From assembly GCF_013408795.1 (NCBI RefSeq), contig NZ_JACCCC010000001.1:868001-932000 (forward strand): a stretch of DNA of 64,000 nt. Direction: 5' to 3'. The translations under genes and the position numbers were made by a program. Below, piece after piece: positions 48,152-50,834 of this stretch (its first letter is position 1; every line of letters begins with the position of its first letter). Origin of the DNA: Spinactinospora alkalitolerans (GTDB lineage Bacteria > Actinomycetota > Actinomycetes > Streptosporangiales > Streptosporangiaceae). The notes beneath the pieces are model-generated. The model saw nothing but the letters and a program-made list of their open reading frames with translations, did not search any database and was not told the DNA's origin.

Positions 48152-48267
48152 GCCCGCCCGCGCCGCCGGGGGAGGGTGCGGGAGCCGGGGCCGCAACCGC
48201 GCGAGGACCGTGGAAATTCCCGCCGGGTTCCGGCCGCTCCCGGCCAAAATCGCAGGTCAAAAATAGG

Positions 48268-48297
48268 TTGCTGATTTTTCGTCGGCCCCTCTAGTCT
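48268..48297 (+). promoter_or_regulatory. Promoter of the whiB7 leader, with AT-rich activator box
   Basis: TTGCTG (48268-48273) and TAGTCT (48292-48297) are 18 bases apart. Directly before the -35 lies the AT-rich CAAAAATAGG, in otherwise GC-rich DNA. Mycobacterial WhiB7 with the housekeeping sigma factor acts at promoters that have an AT-rich stretch just upstream of -35, so this fits autoregulation. Confidence 0.65.
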
Positions 48298-48349
48298 TAA
48301 CGTCATCGAGTTCGCGTCCACCGCGGGAGAAGATCCCGACGGTCTCAAT

Positions 48350-48607
48350 GTGAGGAGGTGCTCCGGTCAAATGAGGACTCTGATCTCTGCTTTCGGTCCG
48401 TTCCTCGGCGCTTGGGGCGCCGGGCGCGGCAGTGGTGTGTGCATGGATACGGATGTGTTGTTCCACGCGGGCAATGCCCGGGCCGCCGCGGGCAATGCCC
48501 AGGCCGCTCGACTCATGCCGAGCCGCCACCGCATCGGAACGAAGTTCGCAGAATCCCAGCGCCCCGAGGGCGCGGTGGGGGAGTGTCCACGGAGTGCTCC
48601 GGCCTAG
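48350..48607 (+). CDS. Upstream open reading frame in the whiB7 leader
   Basis: An 85-codon frame from GTG 48350, or 78 codons from ATG 48371 (MRTLISAFGPFLGAWGAGRG). A GAGGAGG sequence lies at 48352-48358, so the ATG at 48371 has a 12-base spacer and is the likelier start. The encoded peptide has no known family, and its tail shows a repeated AGNA(R/Q)AA. The TAG stop falls inside a hairpin just before the terminator, so translating ribosomes would disturb that structure. A second overlapping frame from GTG 48358 also exists, so which one is translated is not certain. Confidence 0.45.
   Translation: MRRCSGQMRTLISAFGPFLGAWGAGRGSGVCMDTDVLFHAGNARAAAGNAQAARLMPSRHRIGTKFAESQRPEGAVGECPRSAPA
48467..48508 (+). 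repeat. Two 21-base tandem repeats inside the whiB7 leader
   Basis: Units 48467-48487 and 48488-48508 both begin GCGGGCAATGCCC and continue (G/A)GGCCGC. Each unit contains the small hairpin GGGCAATGCCC. The repeat is in frame with the uORF. Confidence 0.8.
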
Positions 48608-48620
48608 CTGAAAAGGCCGG
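48599..48620 (+). promoter_or_regulatory. Hairpin over the uORF stop codon
   Basis: CCGGCCT (48599-48605) and AGGCCGG (48614-48620) form seven pairs around AGCTGAAA. The uORF stop TAG at 48605-48607 lies at the loop edge. Confidence 0.55.
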
Positions 48621-48632
48621 GTGATCCTCCCG

Positions 48633-48669
48633 TGGCCGCGGAACCCCACATTGGGGCCGCGGCCATTTT
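48633..48669 (+). terminator. Intrinsic terminator (attenuator) upstream of whiB7
   Basis: TGGCCGCGG (48633-48641) pairs with CCGCGGCCA (48657-48665) and CCCC with GGGG inside, around an ACATT loop, followed by TTTT (48666-48669). It ends about 140 bases before the whiB7 ATG and would stop transcription unless read through. Confidence 0.85.
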
Positions 48670-48808
48670 GCTGTCTCCCGAGAACCCGTCTCCCGGAGCG
48701 GAGACCTGTCTCGTGGGACTCATCGCAGGTCAAGGCCCCTCAACCGGACGAGATTCCGGTCGTCGTTGTCGCCTACCGCGTTGATCACCAAGAACAGGGA
48801 GGACACCG

Positions 48809-49087
48809 ATGCTTGCGTCGGTCCTGGAAACTCCGTGGCTCGGGGAGGTCGAGGTCCCCTGCCGATGGGAGCCGGACCTCTTCTTCGCCGAGGCCCCGGC
48901 CGATGTCGAGGCCGCCAAGGCGGTCTGCGCCGACTGCCCGGTCAGGGAGCAGTGCCTGGCCGATGCGCTCGAGCGGCGGGAGCCGTGGGGCGTGTGGGGC
49001 GGGCAGCTGCTCGTCGCCGGCAAGGTCGTCGCCCGCAAGCGCCCGCGCGGCCGTCCCCGCAAGGACGCCCAGCCGGTCGCCGCCTAG
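48809..49087 (+). CDS. whiB7: WhiB7 transcription factor, antibiotic-resistance regulator
   Basis: A 92-residue WhiB-family iron-sulfur protein. Four Cys ligands: one in VPCRWEPDLFF, three in VCADCPVREQC. The turn motif is EPWGVWGGQ and the C-terminus carries the AT-hook KRPRGRPRKD, which is diagnostic for WhiB7. With the housekeeping sigma factor it activates intrinsic drug-resistance genes. The neighbour uvrD2 and the long leader match the mycobacterial whiB7 locus. Confidence 0.95.
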   Translation: MLASVLETPWLGEVEVPCRWEPDLFFAEAPADVEAAKAVCADCPVREQCLADALERREPWGVWGGQLLVAGKVVARKRPRGRPRKDAQPVAA

Positions 49088-49167: not shown

Positions 49168-49326
49168 ATGCTGCTCCACGAACTCGTCCGTCTGGAGAAG
49201 ACCGTCGATGACAAGCGTCGGCGTCGGCGCCACCGGCTCAACGCGCGTCAGCTCCGGGCCCAGCTCCGCGAGGAGCGCCGTGCCGAACAGGCGCTCATGG
49301 AAATCCGGGTCTCGCGATTGTGTTGA
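49168..49326 (+). CDS. Small basic protein downstream of whiB7
   Basis: A 52-residue, Arg-rich, probably helical protein (MLLHELVRLEKTVDDKRRRR, then RQLRAQLREERRAEQALMEI). ATG 49168 has GAAGGA eight bases upstream, and third codon positions are GC-rich, as in real genes of this genome. It follows whiB7 by 80 bases. No family is recognised. The stop overlaps the first of two 49-base tandem repeats. Confidence 0.55.
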   Translation: MLLHELVRLEKTVDDKRRRRRHRLNARQLRAQLREERRAEQALMEIRVSRLC

Positions 49327-49420
49327 CCGATAACGATACAGGTGTACTAGCCGAGACATGACATGGTTGCATTGACCGGTAATGACACAGGTGTACTAGC
49401 CGAGACATGACACGGTTGCA
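49323..49420 (+). repeat. Two 49-base tandem repeats
   Basis: Units 49323-49371 and 49372-49420 differ at only 4 of 49 positions and adjoin without a gap; a third unit starts (TCGACCGA) but stops. Each begins TTGACCG and contains CAGGTGTACTAGCCGAGACA. The start covers the stop codon of the small gene to the left. Confidence 0.9.
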
Positions 49421-49435
49421 TCGACCGAGGTGACC

Positions 49436-49483
49436 GCCGAGGGGCCGGGGACCGCGCGAACGCGGGGTCCCCGGCCCCTCGGC
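49436..49483. terminator. 18-base-pair bidirectional terminator
   Basis: GCCGAGGGGCCGGGGACC (49436-49453) pairs perfectly with GGTCCCCGGCCCCTCGGC (49466-49483) around a 12-base loop. It separates the whiB7 region from the convergent UbiB-family gene. Confidence 0.92.
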
Positions 49484-49526: not shown

Positions 49527-50834
49527 TCACCACTCGTCGAGGAAGCCCGGGACCCAGCGCTCCACCTCGGCGCGGACCGGCACCTCGGCCCCGAGCTGGC
49601 ACAGCACTCCGGTCGAGGCCAGGATCACGCGATGGATCAGCATGTAGGAGGGCGGCAGGTTGAGTTCCCGCAGTACGGCACTGGACTTGTGGTAGAGGCG
49701 TTCGGCCTCCTCCCGCAGCCACAGTCGGCTGAACGCGAACCGTTCGTGCCGGGCCGGTTCGGCGCTGGGCATCAGGAACTCCAGCAGCCGCTGGGGGGCG
49801 ATGCCGGAGTGGGGCCGCAGGAAGCCCTCGTCGACGAGCCCTTCGGCGACGGATTCGGCGTCGCCGCGCAGCCCGATCCTGATGAGTCGGCCGAAGGCCA
49901 GGGGGAACCCGTCGGGCAGCCGGTTCACCGCGCCGAAGTCCAGGGCCGCGAGTCGGCCGTCGGGCAGCAACCGGAAGTTGCCGGGATGGGGGTCGGCGTG
50001 CAGCAGCCCGGCGAGCTCGGGACCGGAGAACAGGAACCGGGTGTAGAGCAGCCCGGCCCGGTCGCGTTCGGCCCGGGTCCCCTCGGTGATGATCTCCGAC
50101 AGCGGGCGGCCGCCCAGCCATTCGCTGACCAGCACCTGCTCGTGGCCGGCCAGCACCTCGGGGACGACGAAGCAGGGGTCGTCGGCGTAGGCATCGGCGA
50201 AGCCCTGCTGGGCCGTGGCCTCCAATCCGTAGTCCAGCTCCTCGATGATCCGGTCCTTCAGCTCCGCCAGCAGCGGCTTGACCTCCAGGCCCGGCATGAT
50301 GACCGGGAACAGCCTGCTGATGCGGGCGAGCTGGTGGAAGTCGCTCATCAGGGCCTTGCCCGCGCCCGGGTACTGCACCTTGACGGCCACCTCGCGGCCG
50401 TCGTGCCACACGGCCCGGTGCACCTGGCCGATGGAGGCCGCCGCGGCGGGCTCGTCGTCGAAGGAGGAGAACAGCTCCGGCCAACCGGGACCCATGTTGT
50501 CGCGCAGCACCCGGTGCACGGTCGCGGCGGGGACGGGCGGTGCGGCCTCCTGCAGCCGGGTGAGGGTGGCCCGGTACGGCTCGGCGATCTCCTCGGGCAG
50601 CGCGGCCTCGAACACGGACAGCGCCTGTCCGAGTTTCATCGCGCCGCCCTTGAGCTCGCCGAGGACCTCGAAGACGTGCTCGGCGGTCCGGCGTTGGACA
50701 TCGCTGCTGACCTCGTCGGCCGGGCTTCCGCCCATGCGCCTGCCGAGGCCCATCGTGCTGCGGCCGGCGTAGCCCAATGGCAGGGACGCCAGCTTTGCGG
50801 TGCGCGTGAACGCGCGTCGGGGCAGATCGCTCAC
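49527..50834 (-). CDS. ABC1/AarF/UbiB-family atypical kinase
   Basis: A 435-residue atypical kinase. The UbiB-specific KxGQ motif is MKLGQALSV, the Ala-rich loop is [14 protein letters not shown], then VAVKVQYPG with the nucleotide Lys, catalytic HADPHPGNF and metal-binding [11 protein letters not shown]. UbiB/COQ8 kinases support quinone-lipid synthesis or extraction; in menaquinone-using actinobacteria the exact role is unknown. The same gene follows whiB7 in Streptomyces. Confidence 0.92.

Follow-up and report, generated by a model that had tools for sequence, protein, structure and literature searches.

Attenuation of whiB7 (wblC) through a terminator and an antiterminator, mediated by an upstream open reading frame (uORF) and induced by stalled translation, is established (Lee 2022, as cited in PMC9618640, PMC10727445 and PMC11550727), with early evidence for the attenuator presented by Dinan 2014 (PMC4128351). 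The leader described here lies at positions 48259–48808 of the window, the whole 64,000-nt stretch of DNA analysed, which is part of a 6.68-Mb single-contig genome. In common with the known attenuator (Lee, Lee and Roe 2022; Burian and Thompson 2018; Dinan 2014) it has a WhiB7-type promoter, a uORF predicted to be translated, a terminator near the uORF end, an antiterminator formed between uORF and terminator, and whiB7 downstream. Only lineage details differ, with an inner antiterminator helix of CCACGG/CCGTGG in place of CTGGAG/CTCCAG, a longer stretch between terminator and whiB7 that carries an extra RNA element, and a uORF tandem repeat confined to this genome. The mechanism at this locus is already published and is not of a new kind, and the comparative evidence confirms that the published design extends through the Nocardiopsaceae.

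Two further groups of leaders are related in principle. In the amino-acid attenuators (ilvB1 of M. tuberculosis, PMC13236596; trp), the position of the ribosome likewise selects the terminator or the antiterminator through 1:2, 2:3, and 3:4 pairings, whereas in the present leader the switch is not immediately preceded by a run of regulatory codons, the uORF sequence is free to drift, and the output is a stress regulator. The erm-type leader peptides are similar in that translation inhibitors change the folding of the leader RNA, but these act through conserved arrest peptides and mostly through translational control, and no conserved peptide body is seen here.

The whiB7 locus, its promoter, and the uORF start

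The whiB7 gene (48809–49087, on the forward strand, as are all features below unless stated otherwise) encodes a 92-residue WhiB family protein matching PF02467 (E 7e-17), its identity following from an unambiguous top WhiB7 match in each genome compared and from a basic C-terminal RGRPRK motif; the attenuator lies directly 5′ of this WhiB7 orthologue. Among named genomes, the Nocardiopsaceae (Marinactinospora, Marinitenerispora, Nocardiopsis, Streptomonospora, and Thermobifida) provide the closest WhiB7 proteins, and 51 whiB7 leaders of this family, 48 of them distinct, were fetched for comparison. All 51 have the layout described below, from the promoter through the uORF and its stop site, with the hairpin there, to the terminator and whiB7. 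Upstream lie genes for a UvrD/PcrA-like helicase and for an acyl-CoA thioesterase II. The convergent neighbour (49527–50834, reverse strand) matches the ABC1 Pfam family and, below the curated cut-off, the MABP-1 model, and appears to be a homologue of the macrolide-binding ATPase MABP-1 (Rv3197). In mycobacteria, too, the helicase uvrD2, whiB7, and Rv3197 are neighbours. The identification of Rv3197 as MABP-1 is published (PMC8696161).

A WhiB7-type, putatively autoregulated promoter is found at 48259–48297, with an AAAAAT box (48259–48264) just 5′ of a −35-like TTGCTG (48268–48273), followed by an 18-nt spacer and a −10-like TAGTCT (48292–48297). The same form is present in 51 of 51 family leaders, and the strict motif has a single match in the 6.68-Mb genome, compared with none for a reversed-pattern control. 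Transcription is predicted to start near 48304, giving a leader of ~505 nt. Both the AT-rich box before the −35 and the leader of roughly 500 bases had been anticipated in the original prediction, and both hold. Ahead of the uORF, a hairpin in the 5′-terminal part of the leader (GCGGGAGAAGATCCC, 48319–48343) is conserved in several relatives. A 12-nt repeat, ATCGCAGGTCAA, has one copy at 48249, within the conserved AGGTCAAAAAT of the promoter, and another at 48722, within the second RNA element described below. The pair was considered as a duplicated operator and rejected, as the copies do not change together across species, and from the sequences their occurrence is probably a coincidence.

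The uORF, the presumed translation sensor, spans 78 codons (48371–48607), from an ATG at 48371 to a TAG at 48605. Its Shine-Dalgarno sequence, AGGAGGTG (48353–48360), occupies the same position before the ATG in 51 of 51 leaders, a conserved GGAGGTG preceding the uORF ATG in the family. Whilst a uORF of 78 to 85 codons had been proposed, the conservation of this Shine-Dalgarno/ATG pair in all 51 relatives places the start at ATG 48371, and the GTG at 48350, which would give 85 codons, was rejected; the in-frame 78-codon form stands. Nor is the uORF long, as had been suggested, with lengths of 74–132 codons in the family and 50–202 codons in other Actinobacteria. Among the outgroups, 52 leaders have a uORF (50–202 codons) bearing a Shine-Dalgarno sequence and stopping 20–34 nt before a GGCC-type terminator.

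Switch RNA and the position of the ribosome

The switch was compared in an alignment of 48 leaders, anchored around the uORF stop. Hairpin 1:2 (GCGCCC/GGGCGC, 48559–48573) forms in the uORF tail with 95.9% of cells paired, and includes two pairs in which both partners have changed, with counts that beat shuffled and slid controls. The 5′ half of the antiterminator (48575–48592), also in the tail, pairs through GTGGGG (48575–48580) with 48644–48649 and through CCACGG (48587–48592) with 48630–48635. The antiterminator is thereby made from the last ~16 uORF codons and the 5′ arm of the terminator, and encloses the hairpin around the uORF stop (CCGGCC-TAG...-GGCCGG, 48599–48620), which had been predicted and is present in other families too. 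Here 93.1% of cells are paired, with a covariation score exceeding all 500 shuffles and all slid controls. The outer helix offers the best test. At the antiterminator base, one of its pairs (28/110) varies, being CG in 24, UA in 18, and UG in 3 of 47 aligned leaders, with a motif-based count of the same pair giving TA in 23, CG in 24, TG in 4, and mismatches in none of 51 leaders. On a tree built from flanking DNA, in which some nodes are weakly supported, this pair has changed ~9 times, and in Thermobifida the inner helix contains a compensatory UA. In the outgroup families the inner helix is CTGGAG/CTCCAG, and the stop codon again lies within a hairpin.

An intrinsic terminator, GGCCGCGGAACCCC-ACATT-GGGGCCGCGGCC-ATTTT (48634–48669), is predicted between the uORF stop and whiB7, with 98.8% of cells paired. 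Its hairpin (48634–48664) is followed by ATTTTG, in keeping with the expected terminator with TTTT, and its 12-bp stem is invariant in relatives except for a few cells, the nearly invariant arms being neutral on covariation. The GGCCGCGG terminator core is common to other actinobacterial families. The T tract is short (4 T), and the terminator is missed by a generic scan that requires 5 T of 8. Pair counts and folding indicate that this terminator and the antiterminator, built from uORF and terminator sequence, are mutually exclusive. With Rfam 15 at the gathering score, no family was found over the leader, the sole matches in the window being two tRNAs. A covariance model built for the switch matched 46 of 60 genomes of relatives, with a single match in all but one, and the match lay directly upstream of whiB7 wherever its coordinates were compared with the whiB7 list; no further copies of the attenuator were found in the genome containing the window.

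Alternative folds of the leader were computed with a ribosome placed at successive codons, using only the RNA that it leaves uncovered and ending before the 3′ arm of the terminator is made, and these reproduce the switch between terminator and antiterminator. With the ribosomal P-site at or before codon 64, the antiterminator probability is 0.79–1.00 at nearly all positions scanned, codon 13 being the one exception, and with the ribosome at codons 69–78 the antiterminator falls to 0.00 and the terminator reaches 0.99. In the family leaders, sequestration of the terminator 5′ arm drops from a mean of 0.78 to 0.29 as the ribosome moves from upstream to the stop, with a fall in each of the 48; it falls likewise in 57 of 57 outgroup leaders. 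In all of these leaders (48 and 57) sequestration with the ribosome upstream is above the level obtained with shuffled tails, although a shuffled uORF tail still gives a mean of 0.64, with GC-richness explaining much of the raw level. At equilibrium the terminator with its hairpins is favoured over the alternative (−49.7 versus −31.3 kcal/mol), from which we infer that the switch must be kinetic.

Computation gives the parts of the attenuator, shows that they are conserved and contain covarying pairs, and shows that folding depends on where the ribosome stands, all of which is consistent with the following sequence of events. Transcription would begin near 48304, and ribosomes would translate the 78-codon uORF. 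A ribosome at the uORF end would cover the last ~10 codons, leaving the tail (48575–48592) unable to pair with 48630–48649, with the result that the terminator would form and transcription would stop at ~48669. Stalling or slowing within about codons 1–64, caused by an antibiotic or a shortage of charged tRNA, would leave the tail free as it emerges from RNA polymerase, and the free tail could capture the terminator 5′ arm before the 3′ arm is made, permitting readthrough into whiB7. WhiB7 may then activate its own promoter. The proposal that translation of the uORF chooses between termination and readthrough is strongly supported by comparison and folding, and we regard 48259–48808 with high confidence as a uORF transcription attenuator of the whiB7/wblC type.

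What the uORF senses

At the sequence level, the uORF combines a ribosome-binding site with a maintained frame. In 17 close pairs, some sequences being common to several pairs, every one of the 23 alignment gaps has a length divisible by three, whilst substitutions per codon in the uORF body, outside the last 17 codons, are 0.148, 0.158, and 0.157 at codon positions 1, 2, and 3. A frame that is kept, together with equal change at the three codon positions, suggests that the progress of the ribosome is sensed and not the sequence of the peptide. What these sequences indicate as conserved is the openness of the frame, the frame itself, and the tail RNA, rather than the peptide. A functional or drug-specific arrest peptide whose sequence matters could be read into the uORF tail, as the peptide PR..GA.GECPR..PA is conserved there in the Nocardiopsaceae. 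The residue after GA, however, varies among V, S, P, and L while the RNA pairing stays, showing that at this site the pairing outranks the peptide, and other families have different uORF tails with the same RNA design. Given also the equal substitution across the body, in which no conserved nascent-peptide arrest sequence of the erm type was found, such a peptide is very unlikely. A peptide that drifts in this way points to a general sensor of ribosome progress more than to an arrest peptide specific for a drug or an amino acid, and no single amino acid was found to have a conserved series of its codons ahead of the switch, the uORF bodies diverging freely.

Two rival readings concern the in-frame 21-bp tandem repeats, each with a hairpin, which the original prediction described and which are indeed present at 48466–48507, outside the switch. 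The copies encode AGNARAA and AGNAQAA, are identical at 20 of 21 positions (chance expectation 0.07 matches per window), and each contain a GGGC-AAT-GCCC mini-hairpin; a weak match of one Rfam model, CRISPR-DR28 (E 0.67), was discarded as chance. The repeats were proposed as alternative pairing partners that would make the leader a variant attenuator. They are real, in frame, and self-folding, and the repeat junction CCGCGG occurs in the terminator too, but their expected pairs with the switch region number 0.00 in every leader fragment folded, and the antiterminator probability is the same with the ribosome just before, on, or after them. None of the 109 other loci searched contains the repeat, no comparable repeat was found in other uORFs, and the real pairing partner is the conserved uORF tail. 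A role as pairing partners is therefore extremely improbable, and with a uORF of ordinary length and genome-specific repeats that do not pair with the switch, a variant of the known design is not supported. Alternatively, the repeats could make the uORF a specific alanine sensor, in which alanine codons stall ribosomes during alanine shortage and whiB7 is induced. They raise alanine to 19% of the window uORF, compared with 7–21% in relatives and 12.2% in family uORF bodies, and induction of whiB7 by alanine shortage has been published for mycobacteria (Poulton 2024, as given in citing papers). Against this, alanine is not notably enriched in family uORFs, where glycine is the commonest residue, the repeat occurs in one genome only, and GC-rich codon repeats easily arise by slippage. 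We consider an alanine-specific sensor unlikely, and no effect of the repeats on alanine sensing is indicated. On the sequence comparisons, the uORF appears to sense ribosome progress in general, and not by way of an arrest peptide or a single amino acid.

In amino acid makeup, the family uORF bodies (leaders L001–L007 and L031–L074) are glycine-rich (16.4%) and, in the coding frame, poor in Pro, Cys, Tyr, and Lys, which perhaps reflects selection on composition rather than on sequence.

A second RNA element and the sequences 3′ of whiB7

Between the terminator and whiB7, in the part of the leader made on readthrough, lies a second conserved RNA element of 66 nt (48721–48786), seen in the Nocardiopsaceae only and not recognised in other families. 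Its form, CGC..GGC[hairpin]GCC..GCG, follows a layout of CGC..GG(C/U)CC, a perfect hairpin, and (G/A)CC-N-ACCGCG, with 23 different arm pairs for the hairpin among 48 leaders. A simple pattern matched 42 leaders, in 36 of which the hairpin outperforms at least 95 of 100 shuffles. GGU is paired with ACC in 30 leaders and GGC with GCC in 10, and the covariation score of the pair counts exceeds all 500 shuffles. Strong matches to a model of the element (E 2e-6 or better) occur only before whiB7, in 7 genomes with one strong copy each, the other matches being weak. A hairpin that covaries and sits on a conserved internal loop hints at a regulatory element, and thus at two RNA elements in series controlling whiB7, a reading that we hold tentatively and put at somewhat less than an even chance. 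The element could act after antitermination, for example with its GGCCCC capturing the freed terminator 3′ arm GGGGCC, through effects on whiB7 translation or mRNA decay, or through binding of a ligand. This extra element is a concrete and testable lead.

Directly 3′ of whiB7, a small basic ORF of 52 residues (49168–49326) has a match at every one of the 51 Nocardiopsaceae whiB7 loci and at none of the outgroup loci fetched; a Pfam search with it gave no match, and it is possibly co-transcribed with whiB7. The strongest repeat in the window, a 49-bp tandem repeat of 2.2 copies (49318–49428), also lies after whiB7, each unit containing a promoter-like TTGACC and GTGTACTAG; this repeat was looked for in relatives and not found. 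Finally, a long inverted repeat with 23-nt arms (49436–49483) lies between whiB7 and the convergent MABP-1-like gene, and is likely a terminator common to both.
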